A stretch of 64,000 nt of DNA, taken from positions 5,074,902-5,138,901 of the forward strand of contig NC_087076.1 in NCBI RefSeq assembly GCF_026151205.1, written 5' to 3'. This DNA comes from Bolinopsis microptera (lineage: Eukaryota > Ctenophora > Tentaculata > Lobata > Bolinopsidae). The position numbers and the translations under genes were made by a program. Below the pieces are notes generated by a model, which saw nothing but the letters and a program-made list of their open reading frames with translations, ran no database searches and was not told the DNA's origin. Shown here in pieces: positions 4,214 to 64,000 of this stretch (positions are counted from its first letter, which is position 1; every line of letters starts with the position of its first letter).

Positions 4214-4217
4214 CTGA

Positions 4218-5174: not shown

Positions 5175-5207
5175 TATAGTATCTACTAACTAACCCAGCC
5201 AGACCAA

Positions 5208-5601: not shown

Positions 5602-8600
5602 TCTAGAACTGGGATACAGATATTGTTACTTGTACCATACTCAGACGAAGTGCTCTACTCTAAACTGTATACATATATTGTTAGCTTGTACCATACTCGA
5701 CGACAGCAGCGCTCTACTCTCAACTAGGAACAGCTATGTTAGCTTGTACATACTCCAGAAAACAACAGTGCTCTACTCTAAACTGGGATACAGATTTTGT
5801 TAGCTTGTACCATACTCAGACGACAGCGCTCTACAACTTCAAACGTGATCCAGACTTGTTAAGTTTGCCATACTCAGACGACAGCGGTCTACACTAAACA
5901 GGATACAGATATATTGTTTAGCTTGTACCATACTCAGACGACCAGCGCTCTACTCAAAACTGGGAAACAGATATTGTTAGCTTGAACCATACTCAGACGA
6001 ACAGACGCACTACACTAAACTGGGATACAGAAATTGTTAGCTTGTACCATACCTCAACGACAGCGCTCCTAACTCTAAACTGGGATAACAGATATTTGTG
6101 TTAAAGCTATGTACCAAACTCATACTACAGCGCTCTAACTCTAAACGGAAACAGATATTGTTAGCTTGTACCATACCAGACGAACAGGTTTCACTCTAAA
6201 CAGGGGATACAGATATAGATTAGCTTGTACCCATACTCATACGACAGCGCTCTTTCTCTAAACTGGGATACAGATATGTTAGCTTGTACCATACTTCAGA
6301 CGACAGCGCTCCCACTCAAACTGGGAATACAGATATTGTTACTTGTACCATACACGAGACGACAGCGCCAAGCTCTAACTGGGATAACAGATAATGTTAG
6401 CTTGTACCGAAACTCAGACGACAGTGCTCAACATCTAAACTAGGATACAGATATTGTTAGCTTTACCTATCTCAGACTACAGGCGCTCTACTCTAAACTG
6501 GGATACAAGATATTGTTAGCTGTACCATACTCAGACGACAGCGACTCTACACAAAACTTGGAAACGAGAAAATGTTAGGCTTGTACCATACTCAGACGAC
6601 AGCGCTCTACTTCTAAACTGGACACATATATTGTAGCGTTGTACATACCGACTACAAGCGCTCTACTCAAACTGGGATACAGATATTATTAGCTTGTACC
6701 ATACCAGACGACAGCGCTCATACACTAAACCTGGGATACGAGAAATTGTTAGCTTGGTACCAAGACTCAGATCGACACGCCTACAGTAAACTGGGATACA
6801 GATAATGACTTAGCTTGTACCATACACAGACGACAGCGCTCTAAACTCTAAACTGGAAACACATATTGTTAGCGTTGTACCATACTCAGACTACAGTGCT
6901 CTATCTCCACTACACTGGATACAGATATTTGTTGAGCTTGTACCATACTCAGGATACAGGCGATCTACTCTAAACTGGGATACAGATATTGTTATCTTGT
7001 ACCATACTCCAGACGACAGCGCACTACTTCTAAACTGGGATACAAGATAATGTTAGCTTGTACCAACTCAGACGACAGCGGCGCTCTACACAAACTGGGG
7101 ATCCAGATAATGTTAGTTGTGCCAGTACTCAGACGACAGTGCTTCTTCCCTAAACTGTGAACAGATATTGGTTAGCTAAGTACCATAACTCAGACTAACA
7201 AGCGCTCTAACTGAAACTAACTGGGATACAGATATTGTATACTTGTACCATACTCAGCCGACAGCGCTCTACTCTAAACTGGAAACAGATATTGTTAGCT
7301 TTGTACCATACTCAGGACGACAGCGCTCTACAGTAAACTGGAAAACAGATATTGTTAGTTTACCATACACAGAGACAGCGCACTACTCTACACCTAGGTA
7401 TACAGATATTGTTAGCATGTACCAAACTCCAGACGACAGCGCTCTCTCTTTAAACTGGATACAGATATTGTTAGCCTTGTACCATAACTCACGACACGCT
7501 CTACAGTAAACTGGGATACAGATATTGATAGCTTGTACCATACTCAGACGACGAAGCGCTCTACTGTAGAACGGGGATACAGATAAAGTTAGCTTGTACC
7601 AAATACTCAGACGACAGCGCTCAACTCTAAAACTGGGATACAGATCTTGTCGATAGCTTGATACCATACTCAGAACACAGCGCTCTACTCTAAACTTGCT
7701 ACAGATATTGTTAGCCTTGTACCATACTCTAGACGACAGCGCTCACTCAACACTGGGATTTACAGATATAGTTAGCTTGTGCCATACTCAGAACGATCGC
7801 GGTCTACACTAAACTGGGGATACAGATAATATAGTGTTAGCTGTACCAAACGTCAGAAGCGACAGCGCTCTACTCTTAAACTGTGATTCAGATATTTAGC
7901 TTGTACATACTCAGACGACAGCGCACTACTCCTAACCTAGATACAGATATGTTAGCATTACCATACTCAGACGACAGCGCTCTACTCTAAACTGGGATAC
8001 AGATATTGTTAGCTTGTACCATACTCAGAGACGACAGCGGCTCTACGCTAAACAGGGATACAGATATAGTTAGCTTGTACCATACCCAGACGACAGTGTT
8101 CTAACTCTAAACAGGGATACAGATGATTGTGTAGCTTGTAACCATACACAAGACGACAGCGCCGTCTATGAAACTCTAAAACTGGGATACAGATATTGTT
8201 AGCTTACCAAACTCAGACGAAAGCGCTCTACTCTAAACTGGGATACAAGATATTGTTAGCTTGTACATACTCAGACGACAGCCTCTCCTCTAAACTGGGT
8301 ACAGATATTGTTAGCTTGTACCATACTCAGACGACAGCGCTCTACTCTAAACTGGGAATAACAGAAATTGGTTACTTGTAACCATACCCAGGACGACAGC
8401 GCTCTAACTCAAACCAGGGATACAGATAATTGTAGCTTGTACATACTCAACGACAGTGCTCTACTCTTAACTAGGATACATATAATTGTTAGCTTGTAAC
8501 CATACGCAGACGACAGCGCTCTACTCTAAACTGGATAACAGAGTATGTTAGCTTGTCCAAACTCAGACGACAGCGCTCTACTCTAAACTGGGATACAGAT

Positions 8601-10550
8601 ATTGTTTAGCTTGTACCATACTCAGACGACAGCGCTCTAACGCTAAACTGGTATACAGAAATTGTTAGCTTTACATACTCAACGACAGAGCTCTACTCTA
8701 AAAAACTGGGATCTACAGTATATTTTTTACTGTACAATGTACCATACTCAGACGACAGGCTCTACTCAAAACTGGGATACAGATTTGTTAGCTGTACCAT
8801 ACTCAGACGACAGTGTTTTTCTACTCTATACAGGATATCAGAAATTGTAAGCTTGTTACCATACTCAACGACAGCGCTCTACTCTAAACTGGATACAGAT
8901 ATTGTTAGCTGTACCATACACAGACGACAGGGCTCTTCTCTAAACAGGGTACCGATATTGTTAGCTTGTACCAAACTCAACGACAGCGCTACTACTCTAA
9001 CCCAGGATACAGATATTGTTAGCTTGTACCATACTCAGACGACCACGCTCTAAACTAAATCTGGGGATACAGAATAGTTAGCTTGTACAGAACACATACT
9101 ACAGGTGCTCTACACAAATACTGGGATACAGATAATGTTAGCTTGTACATACTCAACGACAGCGCCCTAATCTCTAAACTGGGATACAGATATTGTTAGC
9201 TTGTACCATAGCTCAGACGACAGTGTTCATACACTAAACAGGGATACAGATATTGTTAGCTTTGTATCCCCATAACTCAGTCAGACGACAGCGCTCTACT
9301 GTAAACTTGGATACAGATATTGTTAGCTTGTACCAACTCAGACGACAAGCGCTCTACACTCAACTAGGATACAGATATTGTGAATTAGCTTGTGAGCCAT
9401 ACTCAGACGACAGCGCACTACTCGTAAACTGGGATACGATATATGTTATCTTGTATTACGCATAGCACAGACGACAGCGCTCTACTGTAAACTGGGAATA
9501 CCGATATTGTTAGCTTGTACCATACACAGACGACAGACAGCTCATCTACTCTAGACTGGGATACCATATATTTTAGCTGTACCATACTCATACGACAGTG
9601 CTCGACTCTAAACTGGGATACGATATTTGGTTTACTTGTTAGCCAGTACTCAGACGACAGCGCTCTACTCAAACTGGAAACAGAATATGTTAGCTTTACG
9701 CAAACTCAGACACAGTTGGCTTCTACTCAAAAATTGGGATACAGATTGATTTTTTTTGTGGGTTTTTTTTTATTTTGTTAGCTTGTACCATGACTCAGAA
9801 CGACAGTGCTCTACTCTAACTTGGAAACAGATATTGTTAGCTTGTACCATACTCCAGACACGAGTGCTCTACGTCTAACCATGGATACAGATATTGTTAG
9901 CTTTGTACCATACACAGACGACAGTGTTTCTACTCTAACTGGGAAACAGATAAAGTTTAGCTTGTACAATACTCATACGGACAGCGCTCTACTCCAGACT
10001 GGGGATACCAGCTATTGTTATCTTGTACCAAACGTCAGACGACAGAGCTCTACTCTAAACGGGATACAGATATTGTTAGCTGTACCATAGCACAGACTAC
10101 AGCGCTCTACTCAAATAAACTGGAACAGATAGTTGTTAGCTGTCCATACTCATACGTACAGCGCTCAACTCTAAACTGGGATACAGATATTGTTAGCTTG
10201 TGCATATAACTCAGAGCACAGCGCACTACCTCTAAACTGGGATAACAGATAATTGTTAGCTTGTACCATACTCAGAAGACAGCGCTCTACTGTAAACATA
10301 GGGATACGAAAGTTGTTAGCTAGTACCACACTCAACTACAGCGCTCTACTCTAAACTGGATAGCCGATATAGTTAGCTTGTACCATACTCAGACGACAGT
10401 GGCGTCTACTCTAAACTGGCTACAGATATTGTTAGCTAGTACGACAACCCTACGAAAAGCGCACTACGTCTAAACTGGGATACAGATAATTGTTTTGCTT
10501 GTACCATACTCAGACGACAGTGCTCTACTCATAAACTGGATACAGTAAGG
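5602..10550 (+). repeat. A1: 58-bp satellite, 5'-truncated array
   Basis: About 85 copies of a 58-bp monomer with the words CTCTACTCTAAACTGGGATA, CAGATATTGTTAGCTTGTAC and CATACTCAGACGACAGCG. It begins abruptly after TCTAGAAAGGTGGGGG with no trace of block E. It is about 1.6 kb shorter than A2-A4, and aligning from its right end shows the missing part is the left. A low-complexity T-rich interruption lies at 9745-9782. Confidence 0.97.
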
Positions 10551-10797
10551 ATTTTTTTTTACAAATGTCTCAGACCATAGCAAGATCTGTGAATTTTAGC
10601 AGAAGACCCACTCGACAGCGCCAATTTGCGCATTTATTATCCCAAGCCCGATACCCACTTTGCGCTCCCTATTATATTAACATCTCGTAAACGTCATAAT
10701 GAAGGTTCCTTTATTCAGTTTAAAGATTAAGTTTTTTTCGATTCTCGGCACGTAGCGCCGACACGACACGTAGCCGGTGCGAAGCTTACTTTGGTTG
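10551..10797 (+). repeat. L1: unique linker between A and B
   Basis: This linker is shared by all units. It opens with a T-run and AACAAATGTCTCAGACC, includes CCGATACCCACTTTGC, and ends in a doubled CACGTAGCCG word before the first B monomer. It contains GCAGACCCACTCGACAGCG-like sequence that joins words from satellites D and A. Confidence 0.9.
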
Positions 10798-12330
10798 GCT
10801 AGGATGGGGGGAAGGCGCAGCCGCCCCAGAAATATTTGTGAGAAGTATGTGATTTAGACGACAATTGGCTAAAGAAATTATTAGGACAGTAATAATCAGA
10901 CATCACAATAATGACAAATTTGGGGGGCTAGGGGTGCGCCGCCCTGGCCATCGAATATTTTTGAGAAATAGGGTGTTCCAGACGACAATTGTAGACAGCA
11001 ATAATCAGAGCATACAATAATAGCAAGTTTGTGGCGGGGGTGGGTGGGGGGGGGGGCGCAACCCCCGTGAAACTTTTGATAAATAGGGTGATTCAGACTA
11101 CATTTGCAATAAAAGAAATTTGTAGGAGAGCATAATCAAACCACAAATATATAAAGTTTGGTTGGCAAGGGGAGCGACCCTCCAGGAAAATTTTTGAAAA
11201 TAGGGTGATAAACTGCATTTGGCATTAAAAGAAATTTTGGTGGATAGTAATAATCAGACATCACAAAATATCAAGTTGGGGGGCCGGGGGGGGTGGGGTT
11301 GCGACAGCCCCCAGAAAATTTTGAGAAATATATGTGTTTTAGACGACATTTGGCATTAAAGAAATTTGAGGACAAATAATCAGACATCACCATAATCTAA
11401 TAATACCAATTGGAGGCAGGGGGGCGCACCCCCCGAAAATATTTGAGAAAATAGGGTGAATTCAGACGACATTAGGCAATTAAAGAAATTAGTAGGGCAT
11501 AAAATCCTGAACATTAGACAATAATAAAATTTGGATTGGCTAGGGAGGGGCTGGGGGGCGCAGCCAATCAGAAAATTGTTGAGAAATTATGTGTTTTTTA
11601 GACGACATGTTAGTCATTAAAGAAATTTGTAGGACAGTAATTAAATCAGACAATCCACAATAATAAGTTTGGAGGCTAGGGCAGCGCATCCCTGCCTTCG
11701 GAACATTTTGAGAAAAAGGTGTAACCAGACGACATTTGTGGGACACAATAATCAGACCTAACAATAAGACAAGTTGGTGGTCTGGGGGTTGGCGCAGAAA
11801 ATAAACAGACATCACAAAAATATAAAGATTGGGTGACTGGTGGGGGGGGGGCGCAGCCCCAAGAAAATTTTTTTAGAAATTATTTGTTTTAGAGACGACA
11901 TTAGGCAATTAAAGATAGTGTAGGAAGCGGCGATAATACAAATTTGGGTGCAGTTTCCCCCTGAAATTTTTGAGAAATAGGTGTTCCAGACGACATTTGG
12001 TGAGACAGCAATGAATCACCAGTACAATAATACAAGATTGGTGTCAGGCTGGGGGGGAGCGCTTGATAATAATCATGACATCAAATAATATAAAGATGGG
12101 GGAACTGGGGGGGGGGGGGGGGGGCGCAGCCCGCCCAATAAAATTTTTTAGAAATATTTGGTTTTAGACACATTAGGCATTAAAAAATTTGTAGGAGCGG
12201 CGAAAATACAAAGTTGGGTGCACCCCCGGAAAAATTTTTTGAGAAATATGGAGATTTCAGACGACATATTGTCATTAAAATTTGTTAATATTTCAACATC
12301 ACAAAAATACAAAGTTGGGGGGATAGGGTG
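10798..12330 (+). repeat. B1: satellite of about 119 bp with G-runs
   Basis: About 13 tandem copies. The monomer contains GACGACATTTGGCATTAAAG, AATTTGTAGGACAGTAATAA, TCAGACATCACAATAATA, a G-run followed by GCGCAGCCCCC, and AAAATTTTTGAGAAATAGGG. The G-run and C-run around GCGCAG can pair, giving every monomer a GC hairpin. Shorter subtypes lacking part of the unit occur near the right end. A run of 18 G lies at 12107-12124. Confidence 0.93.
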
Positions 12331-12560
12331 GAACTCAGTCTACTTGGTCACATTGAATAAGACTTATTGTATGGGGGATGGATTTGGGAATAATTTACGA
12401 AATGCTAAAGACGATTTGACCTGTTGCGTGTCTGTTTATCAAACATACATAGAACACAGCCCACTTACCAGCGAAGACCATTGCATGGGGACTAGGGCTT
12501 ATTTTTTTGGGGTTCAATTATTTATTTTTTTCCGGGCTTCCCCCATGCTACGTGTTCTGC
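12331..12560 (+). repeat. C1: unique segment between B and D
   Basis: Conserved in all four units, from GAACTCAGTACTTGGTCACA to CTACGTGTCTGCATTC. It contains AATAAGTACATATTGTAT, TTGCCTGTCGTGTCGTTTA, ACTTACCAGGCGACCATTGC and a T-run. I looked for snRNA, tRNA and 5S features and found none. The 142-codon frame at 12158-12586 is an accident of this copy and is not open in the others. Confidence 0.9.
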
Positions 12561-15500
12561 ATTCTAGTTGCCGACCCCACTATTAGAGTGGCAGACTCAA
12601 CATTTAGGTTTGCCAGACCCACTATTCTTAGAGTCCAGACCCACAATTCTGGTTTCCATATCCTCATATTCTAGTTCATAGACCCCCAATTTGGTTGACA
12701 GAGTGAAGGAATTACCAAATCTGGTTGCCGAGATTCACTCTTCCTAGAGAGGAGACCCACTCTTCTAGTAGGTACTGAGTCAAACCGCACTAGTTCTAAA
12801 ATGCAGACCCACCATTCTAAGCCAGAACCCACTCTCTTCTGAGGCGAAGAACCTCCCATTCTGGTTGCCACCCCACTCTTCTAGAGAGTAGACCGACCAA
12901 TCCGATTGCCGACCCACATCTTGAGTGAAACACCCACATTTCGGGTTGCCGACCCACTAGTCTAGACTCTAGACCCAGACGGCCGCATTCTGGTTGCCAT
13001 ATATCCTGTATCTAGTTTAACCCCCAATTCTGGTTGAACACTTGACAGAGTGTATGACTTACCATTCTGGTTGCCAGACCCACTCATCTAGAGTGGAAGA
13101 CCCCACTATTCTAGAATTCTACCCACCGATTCTTGGTGCCAGACCCACTCTTCCTAGTAAGAAGACCCCACTAAACAGAAATCCTGACCCACCTATACTT
13201 GTTTCCAGACCCACTACCCTAAGGCAGACCCACCATTCTGATTGCCAGACTCACTCACTTGATTCCCTAAATTGCCGACCATATTCTGGTGCCAGACCCA
13301 CTCATAAAGATTGCAGACACACCAATCTAGTTGCCAGACCCACGTCTACTAAAGTGTAACCCACCTATTATTCCTAGAAAGACCCACCTTTCGGGTTTGT
13401 CAGACCTCACCTTCAAGGGTTCGTACACCCACCATTCTGGTTGCCAGACCCAACTTCTTAGATTGCAGACCCACCATTCCAGCTGCCAACCCTCTCATCT
13501 CCAAGTCAGACCCACTACTCTGGTTGTCAGACACCAATTCTTCAAGGGTGTAGCTTACACCCACACATTCTGGTTTGCCATACCAACTTCTAGATTGCAG
13601 ACCCACCATTCCAGCGGCCAGAACCGCACCACTCGGTGGTCCAGACCCACTCTCAAGGGGTACCCCGGGTTTTGTTTTAAAAAAACACCCACCATTCTGG
13701 TTGCCAGACCAACTCCAGAATTGCAGACCCACCATTCCAGCTGCCAGAACCCACTTCTTCTCAATGCATATCTACCACTCTGTTGGTCATACTCCACACT
13801 TAAAGGGTGCAGACTGCAGTACCGACCGTTCTGGTTGCCAGACCCAATAGAAGATTGCAGACCCTACAATCTAGCATGCCAAACCCACTCTTCTCAATGC
13901 AGACCACCACTCTTGGTTGTCAGACCCACACTTGATCCTTGAAGCCTGAAGGTGGTGCAGACCCACCATTCTGGTTGTTATAAACCAACTTACTAATTGC
14001 AGACCCCACACCATTCCAGCTGCCAAGACCCACACATCATTCCAAGAGGCAGATCTACCACTCAGGTTGTCAGGAACCCAAACCCACTTCTTTAACCTAA
14101 GGTGCAGACCCCACCAATCATGTAGCCATAGAACCCACTCTAATTTGCAGTAACCCCACCATTCTAGCCTTGCCCAGAGAAACCGCACTTCTAGAATTGC
14201 CGACCCAACATTCTACTTCTAAAGCTTGCCGATAACCCACTCTTCTCAAGTGCAGACCCACCACAACCTGCGGTTTTCATACCACTCTTCAAGGGTGCAG
14301 GGACCCACCACTTTTATCTGGTTTGCAGCCCCTCATCAAGTGACGTACACCCACCTTTCTGGTTGCCGAGACCCACTTCTCAAGATTGCATACCCAGCCA
14401 TTCCAGCTGCCAAGACCCACTCGTCTCAAGTTTCAGAACCCACCACGGTTCGGGTGTCAGACCCACTCATTTTCAAGGGTTGTTCGAACACACCACTATT
14501 CTTTGTTCCTGGTTGCCATACCAACTGAATAGATTGCAGGTCCCACCCTAGTTCCAAGCAGTCTCAGATGAGTGGCAGATGAACCCACTCTTCTCCAAGT
14601 CCATACCACACCATTCTGTTGTCAGAGAAGGACCACCACTCTAAAAGGTTGAACGCCTCCACCCACAGCCCCCGCCTTCAACAACCATTTAGCGGCCAAA
14701 ACCACCCCACGCTTCTCTCTCAAGTGCAGACCTCCCCCACAACATTCCAAACTTCATGGTTTGCCGACCCCACTCTTCTAGAGTGAAAGTGACCTCATTA
14801 TTCTCGATGCTGATTTCCACAATTCTGGTTGCTAGAAAGAAGAAGATAACCAACTCCTAGATTGCAAGGCAGACAACCCCAAACCATTGCAATATCCATA
14901 GCCCGCCATATATAAAGAAGACCCCCCCACTCATTCTCCATGCCAATTACTCCCACCATTCATGTTTGAGTCGCACAGACGCCCACGTCAACCTCGTTAA
15001 GACCTCTTATCTCGAATGAGATCTCCCCAATTCTGGTTGCATTGCTATACCAACTTCTAACTTCTAATTGGCAGACCCTAAAGACTCCGACACCTCCAGG
15101 AACCATGCAGCGAAAGCAGACCCCATCCAACCTTACTAGATTTGCATACGGACCACAGCGGAATCCCCAACTCAGACTGATAATGCAGGGACCCACCAAT
15201 CTTATTTCCCTGTCATTCCAACATTACCAGGCCGCAAGAACCACCCTACTTCCCCCGACTCTTTCTCAAAGTGCAGAACCCCACCCACCATTCTGGTTGT
15301 CATACCCACATCATTAAACCTTCACAATGGTGTCGACGCCCAACAATATATAATTCAGGTTAACAAAGAACCCCCACCATCCCCTAGATTTGCATATGCA
15401 TACCCAAAAGCCCACCCACCATTCCCAACTGCCTATATTGCATACATGAACCTAACGAACTTCGCCCGCCACACCATTCACCGCTGCCTAGAGTATTAAC

Positions 15501-15690
15501 TCACCGCACTATACACATTGCCCAAACCAAAACCCCCACCACACCACTCAGATGTCCAGACCACGCTTAAGGGTAACAGACCCATCATTCTGGAATGCCA
15601 GAACCCACTCATTCTATTCTAGATTGCAGACCCACCATTCTAGCGGCCAGTCCCACTCTCCGCAAGTGCAGAACCCACCACTCTAAAGCA
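12561..15690 (+). repeat. D1: 42-bp satellite, longest and most degenerate copy
   Basis: Tandem 40-46-bp monomers built of CAGACCCACCATTCTGGTTG and CCAGACCCACTCTTCTAGAG variants. It is about 500 bp longer than D2-D4. The stretch at about 14600-15560 is much more scrambled, with non-D insertions such as those around 14880-15130 and 15310-15500. These may be old divergence or poor consensus. Confidence 0.93.
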
Positions 15691-17954
15691 ACAGGGGGTG
15701 AAATAATATCAACAAATGGGTCCGAAATAACAAATACACAAAATAAATTCCGAACCCTCCACGTGTGTGTGGCTGGTTGGCACTAACGGGTGGTGGTTCC
15801 ACTTGTTTATAGTACAAAGGTTGTGGGCCTTGCCAACGTCAAAGTTCCCATAGGAACCAACATGGAAGACATCACAACAGCCTAACCAGCGCACCAGAAA
15901 TTTCTCTTTCCGATATTCAGTGTTACAAGAATAGTAACACACACAAATGACTAAACATTGGACAATCCTTTGATTACGATAAGCTCTAGAGAGCTACTAA
16001 ATCACCGAGGAAATTCTCATACAGCTTTCAGTCCATCGAAGTACCCACCACAGAGCTAAGGATTCAATCGCTATCCTGACAACAAGACAACACTGATATT
16101 GAGAGTCCAGGGCACTTCCTCCCTCCAGTAACCATCTTTTCAGGTCATTTCCAGTTAAAACCCGTAATGCGTAAGGCTGGACACACGCTAAGACACAGCG
16201 CGTGCTAAGACAGCATTAGGGATTTAAAATCTGACTACGAGGACACACTGATAGCTGAGAATTCCCCTGACACTTCTCTCCATAACCACTTTTCAGGACT
16301 CGTTAGCATTGGCCACACTCTTCATTGAAGTGTTACTGACGGCTCTAACAATCATCTAGTAGCAGCATAGTTAGACTGACAAAACCCATACTGGTTCATT
16401 CAGTGTTCTACGCGAAGAATCTCAAACACTCGAAGAACAGTTTCATACTGGACCTCCTGCAGAGCTTCTTTTTCACAGCCTGCCCCATTGACACGGGACC
16501 CTTAGATCTACAGTACCCTGGGGGAGCATAGCTCACTAAGCATAGTGGACCTATAGTTCTGAGACGCAAAGCTAACCGGATCAGAGATAAACATCTATGC
16601 AATGCATAGTAGGGATGCGAAATAGAACATACAATGTTTATCGAAGCAATAACTTCCAATCTTTTGATTCCTTTTTTTTTAGCTCGACGATACATGGTAA
16701 CAGTTTCATGACTGACATTCCTCCTGTCAGGTTAATTGAGGAAATCATACCGCTATTTGCGTTATTACATGGCAAGTATCTGGACTTATGATAACTTAGA
16801 TCTCCATCAACATAAATTCCTCCATATACCCAGCTGCATTTAAAGTAAAAGCGCTTAACAGCACCAGTTTTTAACTCCAGATCGATCTGAACATCTCAGA
16901 CCACGTCACAATGGTAATTCCACATCGAGATGACTTCGTCGCAGACATTAAGGAGTATACGGTAAAGAACTACGAAGAATTCGCAAGGGACGATCAATCC
17001 AATCATCAACCCCATAGGACCAGGAACCCTTCCTCCCAAATAGCCAGAAAAAACACTCCAGTGGACAAAGGAACTTCCCACTTGTGATGTTCCTCCACAA
17101 ATTAAATACAGGAACTTTTATTTTTCTGGAACACACATCAGATGCTAACATGGACGCAATTCAGAATAGGTCATCAGCCCACTAGTTTTATTTACAGAAC
17201 GTGGCAAACAACGTCAACTTCATACGCAAGATTGCAACACTGTTTCGGATAACAGCAACATCCCGCACCTCCTCTACTAGTGCAAAAAAAATCCAGATCA
17301 TGACGTCAGAATTAGAATAATTGGTAAACTCTACCTAAAACACCAGTAAACTACATCATATCTTCAATATTGATGGAACAGTCGACAAGACAGGATAGGG
17401 AAAGACTCTTTTGGGTAACCTCCCTTGGATTCTTCAACCAAGAACTTCGCTAAAACCCATACTAGGAACTCACAAAACCATAAGCCCATCTCCCATAGAG
17501 ACATATCTCCCAGCTTTGACCTTGCTCGTAAGTCCGCTTGTCTACCCGCAGAATTACTACAACGAAAGTGGGTTTGCTCTGAGACAGTACGTGACAGCTT
17601 CAAGACTCCAGGGTTCTGTGCAGTTGATATTTATTATTAAATATTTCGTAAATACTTTGGGGAGTCCAGGCGAGCACTAGAGAGTTGCCATTCGTGGGCA
17701 ACGGTGAGAAGGCCTCCATCTTTACGTAAGAGCCAGAAACCGTTGACCCAAACAGAGAGCGATAGAATATCACAATAAAGATTGTTTAATTTTGCAAAAA
17801 TTTCTCGTCATGTGACAACCTTCCCACCCGCCCTCAACCCCTACCCCTCCCCCCCTAAAAAACTCATCGATTTTGCTCCCGCTAACATGATTTTTTCTGA
17901 AAATTTTTGTCAGCAGATCATAAATATAGCCAATATGTAAAAAAAAAAACCTTA
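15691..17954 (+). repeat. E1: unique spacer, about 2.26 kb
   Basis: The spacer starts ACAGGGGGTGAA and ends with an A-run and CCTTA before A2. It is conserved in E2-E4 apart from indels. It contains a degraded palindrome (15967-16010), an internal duplication (16076-16150 and 16231-16300), an AATAAA signal (about 17775) and a C-rich/G4 block (17819-17857). No intact frame is found; the longest open stretches differ between copies. Confidence 0.93.
17819..17857 (-). other. G-quadruplex motif in E1
   Basis: The plus strand is C-rich, so the minus strand reads runs of four or more G separated by 1-5 bases, which fits a G-quadruplex. It is conserved in all four spacers, about 100 bp before the A array. 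Confidence 0.6.
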
Positions 17955-23900: not shown

Positions 23901-24502
23901 AGATATTGTTAGCTTGTACCATACTCATACGACAGCGCTCTACTCTAGACTGGGATACAGATATTGTTAGCTTGTAACCATACTCAGAACGACAGTGCTG
24001 CTATCTACTCTAAACTGGGATAACAGAATTGTTACTAGTACCATAACTCAACGACAGCGCTCTACTCTAAACTGGGATACAGATCTTGTATCTGTACCAT
24101 ACTCAGACGACAGCGCTCTACTCTAAACTGGATACAGAATTGTTATCTTATGCCATACCTCAGACGACAGCGCTCTTACCTATAACTGGGATACAGATAT
24201 TTGTTAGCTTTTAACATACTCATACACAGCGCTCTATACAGTAAAACTGGATACAGATATTGTTAGCTTGTACCATACTCAGACTACAGCGCTCTACACT
24301 AAACTGTGTGATACAGATATTGTTAGCTTGTACTCCATACTCCAGACGACAGCGCCTCTACTCGTAAACTGGGATACTGAATTTGTTAGCCTTTTACCAT
24401 ACTCAGACTACAGCGCTCTACTTCTAAACTGAATCACAGATATTGTTAGCTTGTACCATACTCAGACGACAGTGCTCTACTCAATAAACTGGAATACATA
24501 AG
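17955..24502 (+). repeat. A2: full 58-bp satellite array
   Basis: About 113 monomers over 6.55 kb. It starts GGATACAGATATTGTTAGCT straight after the E1 A-run. A monomer with TGTACAATGTACC lies at 22725, 4,770 bp from the array start and 1,778 bp before L2. No genes are supported; all open frames are monomer translations broken by TAG in TTGTTAGC. Confidence 0.97.
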
Positions 24503-24750
24503 GTTTTTTTTTTTTAACAAATGTCTCAGACCCCATAGCTAGTCTGTGGAACATTTTAAGGCAGAAACCCACATCGACAAAGCGCCAAATTTGCGCATAA
24601 AGATCCCCAAGCCCGATACCCACTTTGCCTCCCAATTATATTAACATCTCGTAACTCATAATGAAGGTTCCGTTATTCATTTAAAAGATTAAGTTTTTTA
24701 CGATTCACGGCACGTAGACCGACACGACACGTAGCCGGGGCGAAGCATCT
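24503..24750 (+). repeat. L2: A-to-B linker
   Basis: The second copy of the linker described at 10551, with the same T-run start and doubled CACGTAGCCG-type word near the end. Confidence 0.9.
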
Positions 24751-26533: not shown

Positions 26534-29415
<2,882 letters not shown>

Positions 29416-44942: not shown

Positions 44943-45047
44943 AAAAAACTCAACGGATTTTTGCTTCCCCGCAACAAGATTTTTTTCTGAAATTTTGTCA
45001 GCCAGATCTGTAACATCCTATCAATAATGTAAAAAAAAAAAACCTTA

Positions 45048-51000: not shown

Positions 51001-51600
51001 AGATAATGTGTAGCTTGAACAAACTCAGACACAAGCCGCTTCTACTCTAGACTGGGATACAGATATATGAGCTTATGGAACCATACTCAGACGACAGTGC
51101 TCTACTCTAAACTGGGATACAGATATTGAGAGCTTGTACCATACACAGTACGACAGCGCTCGACACTAAACGGGGATAAACAGATATTGTTAGCTTGGTA
51201 GCCTTACTCAGAACGACAGCGCATCTAACCAAAACTGGATCAATATTGTTTAGCTTGTGCCATACTCAGACGACAGCGCACTACTCTAAAGCTGGATACA
51301 GATATTGTTGCTTTACCATACTCAGACGAACCAGCGCTCTAACTGTATAGACTGGGATACCGATAATGTAACATGTACCATCTCAGACGACAACGCTCTA
51401 CTCCTAAACTGGATACAGATATTGTTAGCTTGTACCATACACAACTACAGCGCTCTAACTCTAAACTGGATACTGATATTGTTAGCTGTACCCATACTCC
51501 GAAGACAGCGCGACTCACTCTAAACTGGGATACAGATATTGGTAGCTTTGTACCATACTCAGACGACGTGCTCTACACTGAAACTGGGATACAATAAGGT
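45048..51600 (+). repeat. A4: full 58-bp satellite array
   Basis: 6.55 kb. The variant monomer is corrupted here (TGTAGCAAAGTACC at 49819) but stands at the same offset, 4,771 bp from the start and 1,782 bp before L4. A private C-rich insertion lies at about 49155-49186. Confidence 0.97.
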
Positions 51601-51890
51601 TTTTTTGTTTTAGCAATGTCTCAGACCCCATAGCAATCCTGTGAATTAAGGCAGACGCCACACGAACAGGCGCCCAAAATTTGCGTAATTAAATTTATAG
51701 AATCAATATAATTGATACATTATGAGCCCAATCCCGATACCCACTTTTGCCTCCCAATTATATATATCATCTCGTAACTTCATAATGAAGGGTTCCGTAA
51801 ATTCATTTTAAAGATTAAGTATATATCGATTCTCGGCACCGTAGCCCGACACCACACTAGCCGTGTCGAAGCTTCTTTCTTTGGTTGGCT
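51601..51890 (+). repeat. L4: A-to-B linker with a private insertion
   Basis: About 45 bp longer than L1-L3. The extra AT-rich sequence, around 51685-51718 (TTTATAGAATCAATATAATT), interrupts the TTGCGCATAATGAGCCC region. It is not a copy of any nearby block. Confidence 0.88.
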
Positions 51891-53441
51891 AGGAGGGGGG
51901 AAGGCCAGCCCCCAGAACTTATTTGAGAAATTTTAGATGTGTTATCGACTCTTTTGGCTTAAAGAAATTTTTAGGACAGTCAATACTCAGACAACACAAA
52001 TAATACAAAGTTGGGTGGCAAGGGGGGCGTGGCAGCCCAGGCCGAATCGAAAATTTTGAGAAATCGGGTGTTCCAGACGACATTTTAGGACAAGCAAGAA
52101 ATCAGACATTACAAAAATACAAGGTTCGGTGGCTTGGGGGGGGGGGGGCGCAACCCCCGAAAATTTTGAGAATTAGGTGATTCGACGACTTTTGGCATTA
52201 AGAAATTTGTAGAGAGCATAATCATACATCAGAAAAATAAAAAATATTTGTGGGCTAGGGAGCGTAATCCCCCAGGGAGAACTTTTAGAAATAGGTGATT
52301 TAAAACGGCAATTTGGCATTAAGAAATTTGGAAAGTAATAATCAGACATCAACAATAATATAAAGTTGGGGGTCCGGGGGGGTGGGGGGGGGCGCGCAGC
52401 CCCCCAAAATGTTTTGAGAAATAATAATTGTTTTTAAAAGGATACGAACAATTGGCATTAAAGAAATTTTGTTGGACAGGTAATAATCAGAACATCACAA
52501 TAATCTAATAATACAAATTGGGAGGCTAGGAGGGGGGGAAAGGGGGGCGCACCCCCCGGAAAATTTAGAAACATAGGTGTATTCCGACAGCATTACGGCA
52601 TATAAAGAAATTAGTAGGGCATTAATAATCTGATAACAATCACAAGAATATAAAGTTATTGGCTAGGGAGGTGGGGGTGGCGCAGCCAATCAGAAAATTT
52701 ATGTTGAGAAATTATGTTTTTTTACGGGAACGACATTTGACATAAAGAAAATTTGTAGGAACAGTATTTATAATCAACAACACAATAATAAGTCGGAGGG
52801 CTAGGCAGGCGCAGCCCTGCCTTCGGAAACTTTTTCGAGAAAAAGGGTTTTCCAGACGACATTTGTTGGACAGCAAATCAGACAAACAAAAGTACAAGGG
52901 TAGAGGGCGGGGGGTGGGCGCAGTACTAATCATACATCACAATAAAATATAATTTGGGGACTTTGGTGGGGGGCGCAGCCCCCACGAAAATAGTTAGAAA
53001 TTATTGTTTAGACGACATTAAGGCATAATGAATTTGTAAGGACGGCGATAATACTAAGTTGGGGGTGCAAGACCCCGGAAAATTTTTGAGGGAATATGGT
53101 GTTCCAGACGACATTTGGTTGAGACAGCAATAATCAGACATTACAATCATACAGAATTGGTGGGGCTGGGGGGGGGGCGCCGTAGATAATCAACAGTCAC
53201 AATAATATAAAGTTGGGACTGGGGGGGTGGGGGGCGCAGCCCCCAAGAAAATAATTAGAAAATATTTTGTTTTAGAGCGACATTAGCATAAGAAAATTTG
53301 TAGGACGGCGATAATACAAAGTTGGGGGTGCAGCCCCCGGAAAATTATTGCGAAAATAGGAGTTTTTCAGTCAAGAGCGACAAATGGCATTAGAAATTTG
53401 TAATTTCAGACATCACAATAATACAAAGTTGGGGTCTAGGT
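51891..53441 (+). repeat. B4: 119-bp satellite array
   Basis: 1.55 kb. G-runs are shorter and more interrupted than in B2 and B3, which suggests homopolymer length is uncertain rather than fixed. Confidence 0.93.
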
Positions 53442-53660
53442 GGAACTCAGTACTTTCACATTGAATAAGTACATATTGTATATGGATTAGAATAGATTTA
53501 CGAAAATGCTAAAGTCGATGCCTGTCGTGTTCGATTTAAATCAAACAGTCATAAACACAGCCCACTACGAGGCGACCACTGCATGGTTGACTAGGGGCTT
53601 AATTATTTTTTTTTGAGGGGTTCAATTTTTTTTCCGGGGTCTATCCCCTTGACGACGTGT
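53442..53660 (+). repeat. C4: unique segment
   Basis: Fourth copy of block C. Confidence 0.9.
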
Positions 53661-56300
53661 CTGCATCTAGTTGCCAGACGCACACAATTATAGTGCAGAC
53701 TCAACATGTTTGGTGCCAACCCCCCTATCTAGATCCAGACCCACAATTCTGTTGTCATATCTCCTAAATACAAGTTCAGAGACCCCAATTCTGGTTGACA
53801 GAGGAAGAATTACCATTCTGGTTGCCATATTCACTCTTCTAGAGAGGAGACCCACCTTCCAAGTAGTACAGAGTCAAGACCCCACTATTCTCAAATGCAG
53901 ACCGCCACCTTTCTGGTTGCCAGCCCTCTCTTCTGAGGCTATGACCTACCTTCTGGTTGCCAGCCCCACTCTTCTAGAGTGTAGACGCACCATTCCGAGA
54001 TTGGCCTAGACCCACTATTTCTGAGTGAAACACACCACCTGTTCGGGGTTGCCAGGACCCACTATGCTAGAACTCTAGACTCCAGAAGCACAATCCTGGT
54101 TGCCATAATATCCTAATTCTATGTAGACCCCCAATTCTGGTTGACACTTGACAGAGAGTAGACATACCAATCTGTTGCCAGACCCACTCTTCTAGAGTGA
54201 AGACCCACTTTCCTAGAATTCGTTACCGCACCCTTCTTGTTGCCGTTAGACCCACCTCACAGCTGAGAGAGTAAACCCACTATCATGAAATTCTGACCCA
54301 CCTTCTTTGTTTCCAGAACCCTCTAGCCTAGGTGCAACGCCTCCATTCTGATTGGCCATAACTCCCTCATCTTGATTCCCTGATTGCCGACCCACTCTTC
54401 TGGTTGCCAGACCCATCTTAGTAGAGTGCAGACACAACCAATCTAGTTGCCAGAACCCCACCTCTTCTTTCTAAAGTGTAGACCCACCTATTATTCAAGA
54501 GTGAGGACCACCCTCGGGTTGTCAGACTCACTCTTCAAGGGTGTACGTACACCCACCATTCTGGTTGCCAGCCGCAACTCTAGATTGCAGACCCACCATT
54601 CGCAGCATGCCAGAACCCTCTCCTTCTCAAGTCCAGACCCACTACTCTGTTGACAGACCCATTCTTCAAGGGTGTACGTACATCCCACCATTTCCGGTTG
54701 CCAGACCAACTTCTAGATTGCAGACCCACCCATACCACTGCCAAGAACCACCACTCGTGGTGTGTCAGGCCACACTTCAAGGGTGTACGTACACCGCACC
54801 GATTCTGGTTGCCAACCATCTTCTAGATTGCAAGACACCACCATTCCAGCTGCCAGACCCACTCATCTCAATCAATATCACCACTCTGGTTGTCAGACCC
54901 ACTCTTTAAGGTGCAGACTGCAGACGACCGTTTCTGGTGCCAGACCCTTATAGATTGTCAGAACCCAACATTCTATGCTGCCAGACCCACACTTCTCAAG
55001 TGCAGACCCACCACTCTGGTTGTCAACCCACTCTTGATCTTAAGCCTGAAGGGTCCGACCACCAATCAGTTTGTTAGACCAACTTCTAGATTCAGACCCA
55101 CCATCCAGCCCAGACCCACACATCTCAAGTGCAGAACTACCACTCTGTTGTCAGACCCACTCTTTAAGCCTGAAGGTGCAGACCCACCATTCATGTTGCC
55201 AGAAACCACGTCTAGATTGCAGACCCACATTCTAACTCCGAGAACCCACTCTAGATTTGCAGACCCAACATTACGTAGCTGCCATACCCACTCTTCTCAA
55301 TGCAGACCCACCACACTGGTTTGTCAAGCCCTCACTATCTCAAGGGTGCAGACACACCACTCTGGTTGTCAGACCCACACTATCGAAGGTTGTACGTACA
55401 CCCACCATTTCTGGTTGCCGGACCCACGTTCCACGATTTGCAGACGCCAACCATTCCAGCGCCAGACCCACTCCTTCACAAGTTCAAGAGACCACCACTC
55501 GGTTGTCAGACCACTCTCAAGGGTGTACGTACACCCACTATTCTGGTTGCCGACCACTTATAGGATTGCAATTCCCAACCTTCCAGCGTCCAGTTGAGTG
55601 CCAGGATGCACTCTCTCCAAAGTCCAAACCCTCCAATCTGTTTGTTCAGGACCCACTCTTAAAGGGTGCCATACCTCACCATTTAGCGGCCAGAACCCAC
55701 GCTTCTCAAGTGGAGACCCACCACTCTGGTGCCGAACCCACTCTTCTAGAGTGAAGAACTCATTATTCTCGAATGCTAGATCCCCAATTCTGTTGCTAGA
55801 CCAAACTTCTAGGATTGCAGAACCTCCACCATTCCATCCGCCGATAGACCCCCTCTTGCTCAGTGCAGACGTACCCACATTCTGTTTGTCAACCCACTCT
55901 TCTAGAGTGAAGACTCATTATTCTCGAATGCAGATCCACAATTCTGGTTGCTAGACCAACTCTAGAGTTGCGAGGACCCACCATTCCAGCCGCAAGAAGC
56001 CTCTCTTCACAAGTGCAGACCCCACCATTCCTGGTTGTCAGACCCACTCTTCAAGGTGTAGACCCCAACAATACTGGTTAACATACCCACTTCTAGTTGC
56101 ATACCCACCATTCAAGCTGCCAGACCCACATGCACAAGTGCACACCCACCACGTCTGGTTGTCCAGACCCACTCTTTAAAAAGGGTACAGACCCAATCAT
56201 TTCTGGTTGCCAGAGAACCCACTTCTCTAGATTGGCAGACCCACCATTCAAGCTGGCCAGAACCCACTCTTCTCTAAGTGCAAACCCCCACTCTAGGCAA
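53661..56300 (+). repeat. D4: 42-bp satellite array
   Basis: 2.64 kb. Palindromic GTGTACGTACACCC monomers lie near 54540, 54672, 54782, 55391 and 55524. A 235-codon open stretch at 54890-55597 comes from the 42-bp periodicity and is not conserved as one frame in D2 or D3. Confidence 0.93.
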
Positions 56301-56544
56301 CAGGGTAGAATAATATCACAACAAATGGGTCACGATATCCGCTCCGACTCACGGGTGTGGCCAGGTTGGCACTACGGTGGTGTGCTCTCTTGGTTGAGTA
56401 CAAAGGTTTGGACTTGCCAACTCAAAGTTCCATCGGAACCAGAGTAACACTAAACACATACCCAGCACAGGGAAATTATCTCTTTCAGATATCCAGGAAT
56501 TGCAAGATAGTCCACACAACACCAGTACGATACATAGTGACAAT

Positions 56545-56585
56545 CCAGTGATAGTTAGTAGCTCTAAGAGCTACTAAATCACCAG
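56545..56585. other. palindrome in E4 (best preserved core)
   Basis: TAGTAGCTCTAAGAGCTACTA is present intact around the centre, and the right arm continues to AAATCACCAG. Only the outer left arm has two small indels. Confidence 0.8.
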
Positions 56586-58414
56586 GAACATCCGACTTTC
56601 GCTCCGTTTCCAGGTCCCAACGAAGTCAACCCACCACTGTAGCAAGTGAATCTCAATACGCACCTCCTTACTACAAGGACACACTGATATTGAAGTATCC
56701 TGGCACTTCTCCCTCACATAACCACATATCATGTCATTTATCAGTAAAAAACAGCTAATGCGTACGGCAGCCACATGGCGCTAACACAGGCTCATGGAAA
56801 AACAGAAATAGGGAATAAAACTCTGACAACGGAGGACCCACTGATAGCGAGAAATTCCTGACACTGTCTTCCTCCAGGATAACCACTTTTCATGGACCGT
56901 GTAAGCTGTTGCCACACACTTCATTGAAGTTTGACTGGACGCCACTACAAATCATCAGTAGCAGCATAGTTTGAACTGACATCCCTTACGGTTCTATTCA
57001 GTTTCCACCGCGTAAGATCTCAACACACGAAAACATTCATCTCGGACATCCAGCAGAGCTGCTTTTTCACAGAAAGCTCCCCAATACACGGGGAACCCTT
57101 AGACTACATACCCTGGTGCGAGCATAGCTCACAAAAGCATAGAGGACCTCTTAGTTCTGAGACGCAAGCTAACCGGAACATGAATAAACATCAATGCACT
57201 GCATAGGGGATGCAAAATAGAACATACCATGTTTATTCGAATGCATACTCAATCTTTTGATTCATTTTTTTAGCTCGACGTACATGGTAACATTTCAGAC
57301 TGAACATTCTCCTTCAGGTAATTTGAGGAAACAAACCGCTATTTGCGTTAAACCATGCAATATCAGGACTTATGATAACTTAGGATCTCCATCAATCATA
57401 AATTCCTCTCACGGATTCCCAGGCTGCATTTAAAGCGTCTTATACAACGCAAGCACCATCCACCTCCAGGTTTCGTTCTAGAAACATCTCAGACAACTCA
57501 CTAGGTATTCACATCGAGTAGGACTTCGATTCCAGACATTAAGAGTATAACGGTAAAGAACTAAGTCGGAAGAATTCGCAAGGGAACGAAAACATTCCAA
57601 CCAGCATCCCCATAACCCAGAACCTTCCTCCAAATAGCCACACTCAGTAACAAAGGAACATTCCCACTTTTGATGTTTCCTCCACAAATTAAGATACAGG
57701 AACTTTTATTTTTCTGGAACTTCACAACAGATGGCTAACATGTCGCTTTCAGAATATGTCACAGCCCACTAGTTTCTATTCAGAACGTGGCAAACAACGT
57801 CAACTTCAAGACGGCAAGATGTGCGAAACACCTTTTCAGAGAAGCACAACATCCGCAGCATCCTCCACTACAAGAGCATCCAGATCATGACGTTCAGAAT
57901 GAAATAATTGGTAAACTCTACCTTAACACCAGTAAACTACATCCATAACTTCAAATATGTGGAACATTCCGACAAGACTGGATAGGGAAAACTCTTTTGG
58001 GTTAACCACCTTGGATTCTTCACCAGGAACTTGTCGCTAAACCCCATACAAGAACTCAACCTAGGCGCATCTCCACGCATAGAGACAGAATCTCCCAGGC
58101 TTTGACCTTGCCTCGAAGACCCTGTCTACCCGCCAGAAGTACTACAACGGAAGTGGTTTGCTCAGAGACAGGAAGATGACAACAGCTTCAAGACTCCAAG
58201 GGGTTCTGTTGCATTGAGATTAATAATTTATGATTTCGTATATACATGGGAGACCTGGGCGTGCACTAGCAGGAGTGCATTCTGTGAGGCTCGTTGAAAA
58301 GGCCTCCAGCTTAAACGTAAGAGGACAAACCTGTTTGACCACAACAGAGAGAGAGATAATAACAACAAATAAAGATTTTAATTTTTGCAAAAAATTTCTC
58401 GTAACATGTGCCAG

Positions 58415-58456
58415 ACCCTCCCATCCCCCACTCAACCCCCTACCCCTCCCCCCCTA
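58415..58456 (-). other. G-quadruplex motif in E4
   Basis: Same minus-strand G-run block as in E1-E3. Confidence 0.6.
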
Positions 58457-58559
58457 AAAAACTCATCGGAATATTTTCTTCCCGCGAACCATATTTTTCT
58501 GAAATTTTTGTCAAGCCAGATCTGTAAAATCTATCAATATGAAAAAAAAAAGACCTTAT

Positions 58560-61500
58560 GATACAGATATTGTTAGCCTTGTACCATACTCAGACGGTAA
58601 CAAGTCGCACTACTCTAAACGTATAACAGAGTAATGTTAGCTTGTACCAACTCAGACAACAAGCGCTCTACTCTAAACTTGGGATACAGATATTGTTAGC
58701 TTGGACCATACTCAACGACAGTGCGCATCTCTAAACTGGGATACAGATATGTTGCTTGTACCATACTCAGACGACGAGCGCTCTACTCTAAACTGGGATC
58801 TACAGATATTGATAGCTTGTGACTCATAGTCAAGCGACAGCGCTCGACTCGTAAACTGATACAGATGATTGTTATCTGTACCATACTCAACACACGCCTA
58901 CTCTAAACTAGGTACAGATATTGATAGCTTGACCATACTCAGAACGACAGCGCGTTCTACTCTAACCTGGGATACAGATATTGTTAGCTAGTACCAAACA
59001 CAGACGACATCGCTCTTACTCTAAACAGGATACAATATTGATATCTTGTACCATACTCAACTACAGCGCCTACTGTAAACGGTGATAACAGATATTGTTT
59101 AGCTTGTACCATACTCAGACGACAGCGCTCTACTCTAAAACTGTGATACATATATTTTAGCTTGTAGCCATACTCAGACTACAGAGCTCTACTCTAAACT
59201 TGGGATACAGATATTGTTAGCTTGTACCCAATACCTCAGAACGACAGCGCTTTACTCTAAACTGGGAATACAGATATTGTTAGCTAGTGACCATACACAT
59301 ACGACAGCGCACTACTCTAAACTGGTATAGCAGATAATGTTAGCTTGTACCATACTCAGACGACAGCGCTCTACACTAAACGGGGAACAGAATTGTTAGC
59401 TTGTGGCCATACTCAGCGACGAGTGCACATCTCTAAACTGGGATACAGATATTGTTAGCTTGTAACCATACTCAGACGACAGCGCTCCTACTGTAAACTG
59501 GATACAGAATGTGTTAGTCTGTACAACTCAGACGACAGCGCTCTACTCTAAACTGGGAGAACACAAATTGTTAGATTGTACCATACTCAGCCGACAAGCG
59601 CTCTAATACTCTAAACTGGGATACAGCCAATTGTTAGCTTGTACCATACTCAGACACAGCGCACTACTCAACTAGGATTACACATATTGTTACTTGTAAC
59701 CATACTCAGACGACAGTGCACTACTCAAAACTGGGATACAGATATTGTTTACTTGTACCGATACACAGAACGACAGCCGCTCACTAACTCAAAACTGGTA
59801 TACACATATTGTTTAGCTTGTACCATACTCATAACGACAGTGATCAACTCTAAACAGGGATAACAGATATTGTTAGCTTACCAATACTCAGACGACAGCG
59901 CCTACTGTAAACGGGGATACCGAATATTGTTTGCTGTGTAACATACCTCAGACGACAGCGCTCTACTCTAAACTAGAAACAGATATTGTAAGCTTGTACC
60001 ATACTCAGAAACGACAGCGCTCAACTCTAAACTGGAAACAGATAATGTTACTTGTACCATAGCTCAGACGACAGCGTGCTCTAACTGTAACAGGGATACA
60101 GATATTGTTGAGCTATGTAACCATACACAGATCACAGCGCGCTAATCAGACTGGGATAACAGATATAGTGTAGCTGTACCATACCAACACAGTGGCTCAA
60201 CGTCAAAACTGGGATACAGGTATTGTTAGCTTTGTACCTACTCATACGACATCGCACTACTCTAAAGTCGGTATACAGATATGGTTAGCTTGAACCATAC
60301 TCAGACGACATTGATTGCTCTACTCTAAAAGGGATACATATTTTTGTTACTTGTACCAATACTCAGACGACCAGCGCACTAACTCTAACTGGATACAGCT
60401 ATTGAACATGGCAGTACTCAGACGACAGCGGTCTACTCTAAACTGGGATACGATAAATTGTTAGCATGTACCCATACTCAGACGACAGCGCTCAACTCCT
60501 TAAACTGGGTATACAGATAGTTGTTAGCTTGTACCATGACACAACTACAGCGCTCTACTCTAAACTTGGGATACAGAAAATTTAGCTGTACCATATCCAG
60601 ACCGACAGCGCTCTACTCTAAACTGAGGCTACAGAAATTTTAGCTTGTAACCATACCAGACGACAGCTGCTCTACTAACTCTAAACTGGATACATGATCT
60701 TAGTGTCGCTTGTACCAAACTCAGACCCCGACGTGTTCTACACTAAACTGGATACAGGATATTGTTAGCTTGTATCCATACCTCAGACGACAGCGCTATC
60801 TCAAACTGGATACAGAATTGTTAGCTTGACCATACCAGACGACAGCGCTCTACTCTAAACACTGGTGATACAGATATTGTAAGCTGTGTAACCAAACTCA
60901 GAACGACAGCGCTCTACTCTAAACTGGAAACAGATAATGATTTAGCTTGTACCATACCAGAACCCGACAGTACCTACTCTAAACTAGTATACAGATATTG
61001 TTACATGTACCATACTCAGACGACAGCGCTCTACTCTAAACTGTATATCAGATATTGTTAGCTTGTACCATAACTCCAGACACAGCGCTCTACTCTAACT
61101 GGGATACAGATAATGTTAGCTTGTACCACACTCAGACGAACAGCGCTCACTCTAAACTGGTATACAGATATTGTTAGCTGTGTACCATACACAGACGGAC
61201 AGCGCTCTACTCTAAACTGATACAGATATTGTTAGCTATACCATAACTCAGACGACATCGCTCTACTCAAACTGGTACGAATTTGTTAGCTGAACCATAT
61301 CTCATACGCGAGCGCTCTACTGTAAACTGATACGATATTGTTAGCATGTACCATAACTCCGACGACGACGTCTCCTACTCTAACTGGGATACACATATTG
61401 TTACTTTTTACCATACACAAACGACAGTGCTCTATCTAAACTGGGATACAGTATATTGTTAGCTTTACCAATACTCCGACGCCAGCGCTCTACTCCTAAA

Positions 61501-64000
61501 CTGGGATACAGATATTGTTAGCTTGTACCATACTCAGACACAGCGCTCCTACTCTAAACTGGGATACAGATAATGTAGATTGTAACATACTCAGAACGAC
61601 GCGCTCAAACTCTAAACAGGGATACAGATATTGTTAGCGTTGTGCCTACACAACGATCAGTGCTCCTTCTCTAAACAGGATACAGAAAATGTTAGCTTGT
61701 ACCAACTAGACGACAGCGCTCACTGGTAAAGCTGTGGATAGCAGATATTGTTAGCTTGTACCAAACTCAACGACAGCGCTCTACGTCTAAACTGTGAATA
61801 ACAAGATATTGTTAGCTTGTACCATACTCAGACGACAGCGATCTACTGTAAACTGGGATACAGATATTGTTATCTTTGTAATCCATACTCAACGACAGCG
61901 CAGTCTACTACTCAACTAAACAAGATACAGATAATGTTACTGTACCATACTCAACGACAGCGCTCTACTCAAACTGGATACAGATATTGTTAGCTTGTAC
62001 CAAACACAACGACAAGCGCTCTAAACTGTAAACTGGATACATATATTGTTAGCTAGTACCATACACAGACGACAGCGCCTACTGTAAAGCATGGAGTACA
62101 GATATTTGAATAGCTTGTACCATACTCTGACGACATCGCTCTACTCAAAAACAGGGATACAGATATGATAGCTTTAGGCCATACACAACGAACAAGCGCT
62201 CCGACTCTAAACTGGATACAGATATTGTTAGCTTGTACATACTCAGACGACATCGCTCACCTCTAAGACTGGGATACAGAAATTGTTTAGCTGTTCCATA
62301 CTCAGATACGACAGCGGACTAACACAAAACTGGGATACTATATATTGTTAGCTTGTACCATACTTCAGTACGAAGCGCCTCTACACTAAACTGGGGATAC
62401 AGAAATTGTTACATTGCACCATACTCCAACACAGCGCTCTACTCTAAAACTAGAGACAGAAATTGTTAGCATGTACCATACTCAGACGACAGCGCTCTAC
62501 TCTACATGATAACCAGATATTGTTAGCTAGTACCATACCTCAGGAAGACACAGCGCCTACTCTAAACTGGGATACAGATTTGTTAGCTTGTAACCATACA
62601 CAGGACGACATGTTCACTCTAAACAGGGATACAGAAATTGTTAGCGAATGTACCATACGCGTCAGACGACAGCGCTCTACTCTAAAGCTGGGATCAGATA
62701 TTGTTTAGCATGTCCCATACTCAGACGACAGAGCTCTACTCAAAACTGGGATACAGATAAAGTTATCTTGAACCAAACTCAACGGACAGCGCTCTACTCT
62801 AAACGGGATACCGAAATTGAATTAGCTTGTACCAACTCATACGACAGCGCTCTACTCTAAACTGGTATACAGATATTGGTTACATTACCATACTCAGACG
62901 ACAGCTCCTACTCAAACTGGGATACAGATATTGTTACTTGTACCATACTCATACGACAGTCTCTACTCTAAACTAGATACAAGATATTGTTAGCTGTACC
63001 ATACTCAGAGGCACAGCGCACTATCTCAAACTGGAAATCAGATATTGTTTGCTTGTACCAAACTCAGACGACAGCGCTCTACGCTAAACTGGTATACAGA
63101 TATTGTTAGCCTGTACCATACGTCAGACACAGAGCGCTCTACTACTAAACTGGATACAGATATGGTTAGCTTGTACCATACTCAGACGACATTGCACTAC
63201 TCTAGAACTGGATGCTACAGATATTGTTAGCTTGTACCAATGTACCTACTCCCAACGACAGCGGTCTACTCTAACTGGGATACAGAATTGTTAGCTTGTA
63301 ACATACTCAGACGACAGTGACCTACTCTAAACTGAGGATACAGATATGTTAGCTTGTACCATACTCAGACGTCAGCCTGCTCGACATCTAAACTGGATAC
63401 AGTATATTGTAAGCTGTACCATACTCAGGAACGACAGTGCTCGTTCTCTAAACTGGGAGTACAGATATATTGTAAGCTGTACCAACTCAGACCGACAGCG
63501 CTCTACTCTAAACAGGGATAGCAGAAGATAGTTAGGCTTTGTACCATAGTCGACTATCACGCTCTACTCAAATCTGGATACAGATAGGTTAGCCTTGTAC
63601 CATACTCAACACCGTGCTCTAACTCTAAACAGGGATACAGATATGTTAGCTAGTATACCACACTCAGAACGACAGCGCTCTACTCGTTAAAAACCCCCTG
63701 GGGAATACCGATATGTTAGCTTTACCATACTCAGACTGACAGTGTATCTACCTACTCTAAACTGTATACAGATATTGTTCGCTTGTACCATACACAGACG
63801 TACACGCGCTCGTACTGTAACCTGGGATACAGATATTGTTAGCTTGTACCTCCTACCAGACGGAACGACAGCGCTCACTCTAAACTAGGAACAGATATTG
63901 TTAGCTTGTACCATACTCAGACGACAGCGCTCTACTCAAACTGGGATCCAGATATTGTTAGCTTGTACCATAACTCAGACTACAGCCGCTCCTACTGTAA
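58560..64000 (+). repeat. A5: 58-bp satellite array, cut by the window end
   Basis: 5.44 kb of the expected 6.55 kb. The variant monomer (GTACCAATGTACC) is at about 63236, 4,676 bp from the start, about 90 bp earlier than in A2-A4. That indicates net loss of one to two monomers or read error. Confidence 0.96.

Follow-up and report, generated by a model that had tools for sequence, protein, structure and literature searches.

Here, we find that from about position 5,595 onwards the window (the whole 64,000-nucleotide stretch analysed, G000:C5:5074902-5138901, C5 being its contig) is uncorrected raw long-read sequence standing in an assembly gap. We give a probability of roughly three in four to the reading that this gap fill displays a real higher-order tandem array and has probably been wrongly placed. 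The array, with units above 10 kb made of a 58-bp satellite and one transposon, probably exists in the source DNA. Around 79 kb of C5 and 19-20 kb of contig C1 are raw-read filler: diversity measured in such filler is mostly sequencing error, and its positions are doubtful. The case also illustrates how a higher-order array can arise from a plain satellite through a single transposon insertion, since the insertion site, the satellite on both sides and the repeated block are all legible. The assembly searched comprises 264,652,675 bases in 232 contigs.

The letters are clean at window positions 1-5,594. From about 5,595, adjacent copies of the 58-bp array differ by 13-16% indels in the tandem-repeat analysis, and a fairly even noise (about 3-4% substitutions, 5-6% insertions and 3-4% deletions) continues to about 84,800, past the window end, where it stops inside block E and gives way to clean sequence. 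The preliminary description had let the repeat extend to 64000; it does fill the window from about 5,595, but the stretch runs on well past that limit. Compared with a clean copy of the element on contig C3, the five complete element copies show 2.9-4.1% substitutions, 4.6-12.9% insertions (the two highest values being due to local bursts) and 3.1-3.8% deletions. All five agree with the C3 element at 5,044 of 6,862 positions, and at only six positions do four or more of the five share a non-C3 call, each time a deletion. Genuine divergence between the copies was rejected, as they differ pairwise by about 18-23% but show no consistent departure from the clean unit. A supposed extra piece in copy 1 was also rejected; on reading, it consists of bursts of junk insertions. 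Copy 2 carries a run of about 224 A (29075-29298) that is absent from the clean unit.

Within the noisy stretch the block order A-L-B-C-D-E, already recognized in the preliminary description, indeed recurs in direct orientation (Table 1). Six element copies start there, the last two outside the window at 65022 and 78428. Five A blocks are complete, at 6,463-6,547 noisy bases each, and the last of them ends outside the window. TRF scores for the window repeats reach several thousand, so that chance repetition is not an issue. The 13.4-kb period first proposed holds as a repetition but not as a size, which is inflated by the raw-read noise: scaled to the clean C3 sequence, the unit comes to about 13,154 bp, with 6,782 bp of element and about 6,372 bp of satellite, the latter uncertain by about one monomer.

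Table 1. Features of the window (positions in window coordinates)
Feature	Position	Strand	Remarks
Clean left flank: 61-bp satellite at 1-1899, followed by different sequence	1..5594	+	diverged copy beyond the noisy stretch, same contig
Raw long-read fill	5595..64000 (to ~84,800, beyond the window)	+	judged from errors relative to clean C3 sequence
A1: 58-bp satellite, beginning inside a unit	5607..10545	+	
Element copy 1: hAT-like transposon with E inside it; bursts of insertions at ~14.0-15.6 kb	10546..17954	+	
A2: 58-bp satellite block	17955..24498	+	
Element copy 2	24499..31637	+	
Block E in copy 2: nested retroposon, ~1.98 kb	29453..31431	+	dispersed copies match query 35-2012 of 29420-31640
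A3: 58-bp satellite block	31638..38162	+	
Element copy 3	38163..45047	+	
A4: 58-bp satellite block	45048..51594	+	
Element copy 4	51595..58558	+	
A5: 58-bp satellite block, continuing to 65021 beyond the window	58559..64000	+	
Letters also placed in contig C1	47804..64000	+ (minus strand in C1)	end of the C1 copy falls between ~66,480 and ~68,400

A clean copy of the unit is present at C3:660,589-676,139, single and between other sequence. There, an insertion of 6,782 bp is flanked by the 58-bp satellite, with a left arm of about 2.3 kb and a right arm of 6,449 bp; among the matches listed, this satellite is clean at C3 alone and otherwise found only in the C5 and C1 fills. The inserted element is bounded by perfect 17-bp terminal inverted repeats, TAAGGTTTTTTTTTTAC and its exact reverse complement. 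Eight bp of the 58-bp monomer, GGATACAG, are doubled around it as a target duplication, the satellite-element junction reading GGATACAG-TAAGG (end sequence of the hAT-like element: TAAGGTTTT). Transposons of the hAT superfamily produce 8-bp target duplications and have short terminal inverted repeats with a YARNG start. The element shares both features, TAAGG fitting YARNG; it differs in that its body is largely minisatellite, with no transposase seen in it. Ends resembling those of the C3 element occur at loci L030-L040. Twelve loci, these and C3, were examined for ends, a subset of all element loci found; in 10 of them exact 8-bp target duplications stand beside the same ends, the exceptions being L032 and L040. 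The B-C-D part is dispersed, with at least 81 match rows, satellite pieces among them (best 28 of 445 candidates scored). Eleven element copies outside the array measure 3.9-5.2 kb, and the C3 copy owes most of its greater length to E.

Two minisatellites lie inside the element. For B, clean sequence gives TRF periods of 136 and 261-264, and not the period of about 119 bp reported at first; for D, the period is 21/42. The longest ORF of the element (180 aa) is in D, and no Pfam match above the cut-off was obtained for the four ORFs scanned among its 10 of at least 90 aa. Judged by its ends and target duplications, L, B, C and D together are one dispersed hAT-like non-autonomous transposon, with E as a second element inside. 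The initial view of three unrelated satellites and two unique spacers survives for the 58-bp satellite; the rest is a single dispersed transposon holding B, D and the nested E.

Block E is itself dispersed, as a 1.98-kb sequence with at least 51 match rows including those of the window and C3 (best 40 of 398 candidates scored). Its copies have flanking repeats of 13-14 bp at 10 of 11 loci and of 9 bp, exact, at L021; inside the C3 element the target duplication is AATATCAACAAAT. The 3′ end is (GA)n and there are no inverted repeats. Shorter copies anchored at the 3′ end start at 278, 417, 1007, 1095 and 1410, whereas a few pieces lack 3′ sequence instead. The one 90-aa reading frame of E that was scanned had no Pfam match. 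Target duplications of variable length, a simple 3′ tail, the lack of inverted repeats and 5′-truncated copies together characterize E, on its sequence features, as a likely non-LTR retroposon nested in the hAT-like element.

The tandem order is best addressed in the A blocks. In all five complete blocks, the first 4.07 kb tracks the monomer order of the C3 right arm and the last 2.3 kb that of the left arm, each beating 12 of 12 shuffles, and the best-fitting right-arm/left-arm composites measure 6,331-6,389 bp. When the register is moved in steps of 58, the right-arm end falls at 4,052 in six of six A blocks, A1 included. This value describes register and length only; a join shifted by up to nine monomers scores alike. 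The start of A1 falls within a unit (right-arm register 1,566): with the register scanned, its head scores 3,667 against a maximum of 3,616 in 20 shuffles, and with the register one monomer off, 3,537 against a shuffle mean of 3,548.

Thirty-five substitutions relative to the C3 arms are common to the five complete A blocks, whose noise is independent (19 in five of five, the rest in four of five), and all fall within positions 2,381-5,068; the first 2,380 and last 1,303 positions hold none. Ten more shared calls are deletions. Under equal noise, the element shows zero such shared substitutions in 6,862 positions. The A blocks are therefore C3 sequence beside the element on both sides, with a middle 2.7 kb of their own, which was not found in the C3 arms in a comparison that covered all but 1,543 of the 6,449 right-arm bases. 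A simple arm join at 4,052 was dropped, the middle being like neither arm. We had also considered a marker 1.78 kb before the element as left-arm sequence, and one of the two markers proved absent from the left arm. Whole-block comparisons were too blunt: alignment of A blocks to the right arm favoured the unshifted register in five of five cases by small margins, and a MAFFT consensus of the blocks fits either C3 arm at only about 92%.

Could the tandem order nevertheless be an artefact, in which the C3 locus with its one unit was read several times and these raw reads were chained via the 58-bp satellite, with no element array behind them? C3 does show one unit, the element copies are identical to that of C3 within noise, and a gap filler can misuse repeats (PMC7476103). 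However, re-readings of C3 chained together could not give five A blocks of one length with 35 common substitutions over 2.7 kb absent from the C3 arms; moreover, the gap closer uses one segment from one read per gap, as PMC7476103 describes it. We consider such chaining quite improbable and take the array as probably real: six element copies stand head to tail in the noisy stretch, an arrangement seen in no clean locus, with A-block sequence shared between them. The claim of tandem units above 10 kb is thus probably correct, and the suspicion of an assembly artefact that accompanied it is borne out as regards base quality and probably also as to position, whereas it does not hold for the order of the units.

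The position is a separate issue. The reverse complement of C1:19024001-19027000 is identical to window 52483-55482 over 3,000 of 3,000 letters, whereas the two other units, among the matches listed, reach 81-82% identity with that segment. This identity makes the placement on C5 doubtful. The C1 copy begins at window 47804, where it abuts unrelated clean C1 sequence. Five 80-base probes were taken from C1 beyond this point: the closest one matches at 66403, and for the remaining four there is no match in 144 kb of C5; only 52483-55482 was compared letter by letter, the rest of the C1 copy being placed by its junction, one probe and paired search scores. The methods in PMC10232365 name wtdbg for the B. 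microptera assembly and PacBio CLR and HiFi libraries for the three species of that work; TGS-Gapcloser was used there to close gaps, along with Purge Haplotigs and, for polishing, Pilon. The fill reads were presumably CLR, and the gaps considered here were presumably closed by TGS-GapCloser from a long read. In that program, according to PMC7476103, candidates are segments taken out of long reads, the highest-scoring one is used per gap, and one read may yield candidates for several gaps. The use of one read in two gaps, on C5 and on C1, fits this behaviour.

Since the array and C3 have one insertion site in common and, within noise, one element sequence, we favour as its home a C3 array collapsed to one unit in the assembly, or an allele of C3. 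An array truly located on C5 beside the left flank, in one haplotype, with C3 as a separate copy of the unit, seems unlikely to us. In its favour, the left flank passes straight into the satellite, and no sizeable repeat common to both sides accounts for a false join there (the matches are three, with E 0.001-0.008, and span 27-36 aligned columns); also, the A blocks differ from the C3 arms in their middle part. But C3 and the array agree, within noise, in the element, its insertion site and the satellite next to it, which is what a single locus should give; identical letters stand in C1; the right join falls within the dispersed block E; and A1 opens in mid-unit. A functional centromere or a spacer of ribosomal genes, both raised in the preliminary description (the second as a large intergenic spacer), is a reading to which we give hardly any weight. 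Both can be built of large satellite units. Nevertheless, the 64,000-base window has no Rfam match at the gathering threshold, and no RNA gene, ribosomal ones included, was found in it; the satellite, among the matches listed, is confined to C3 and the C5/C1 fills; and a protein-kinase exon (PF00069, E = 8e-10) lies about 0.5 kb past the right end of the C3 satellite. This exon maps to L053:777-1007, minus strand, at C3 ~676.6-676.8 kb.

We propose the following history. A plain 58-bp satellite array would have been entered by one hAT-like non-autonomous transposon with its own minisatellites, doubling 8 bp of the monomer, and the 1.98-kb retroposon E would have entered that element before or after this event. 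Unequal exchange between the satellite on both sides of the element, which seems the simplest origin of the array, could then have set element and satellite head to tail in units of about 13.15 kb. Finally, a raw read through the array would have filled the C5 gap between two probably allelic copies of a region, part of its letters filling the C1 gap, and one clean unit would have been left in the assembly at C3:660.6-676.1 kb. As it stands, the array is satellite plus selfish DNA, with no sign of a host function, and none is needed as an explanation. With the kinase exon so close, copy number could conceivably influence a gene. We only tentatively suggest, as a possibility clearly short of even odds, a young macrosatellite of this comb jelly with units of about 13.15 kb, possibly variable in copy number between alleles, larger than assembled, about 0.5 kb from a protein-kinase gene and begun by one transposon insertion into satellite.

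A tandem array of a transposon in satellite is a known type of structure; this case of it is new, and is seen through an assembly defect. The mammalian macrosatellites D4Z4 and DXZ4 have kilobase-size tandem units at one or few places, as here, but our unit of about 13 kb combines satellite with nested transposons and no gene was seen in it. In rye, the pSc200 and pSc250 satellite arrays are described as co-amplified with adjacent transposons (PMC4857426): satellite and transposons likewise expand jointly, with recombination as the proposed cause, but in massive subtelomeric blocks with varied junctions, whereas the array here has one insertion, one site and a regular unit. Transposons with internal tandem repeats, a subject reviewed in PMC9659126, include the DNA transposon Tetris of Drosophila virilis (PMC4079207). 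The hAT-like element resembles Tetris in this respect; yet the repeats of Tetris itself, as reported there, became satellite, whereas here the satellite is the target and the transposon the passenger. Among the titles found for ctenophore satellite DNA, none is on such an array.

The sequence of the left C5 flank returns to the right of the noise in pieces of 88-92% identity, one 127-bp piece reaching 99%, and both copies share 61-bp and 11-bp satellites; they are probably allelic, representing diverged haplotypes. The 61-bp satellite, rich in AGGTAGAAGGAG, occupies about 5.6 kb in each copy (window 1-1899 and L010; L013-L014). A piece of about 850 bp, CATCGATGGTAAATAC...GCATTTACCATCCTTGA, is present in the right flank copy only (L014:3721-4590, compared with window 5540-5570); it has inverted-repeat-like ends with CTTAGAG on both sides and is likely a transposon-insertion difference between haplotypes. 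Conversely, a stretch of about 1 kb (window ~3118-4084) is missing from the right copy, and in it sits a dispersed repeat of about 210 bp (window 3145-3355, also in L004-L008) with dozens of genome match rows at 80-91% identity. Other short arrays occur nearby (L014-L016, C5, window-scale 98.6-123.3 kb), with units of 14, 20, 30, 31, 35, 40, 41, 46 and 64 bp; the 41-bp array contains GTGCACGTGCAC.
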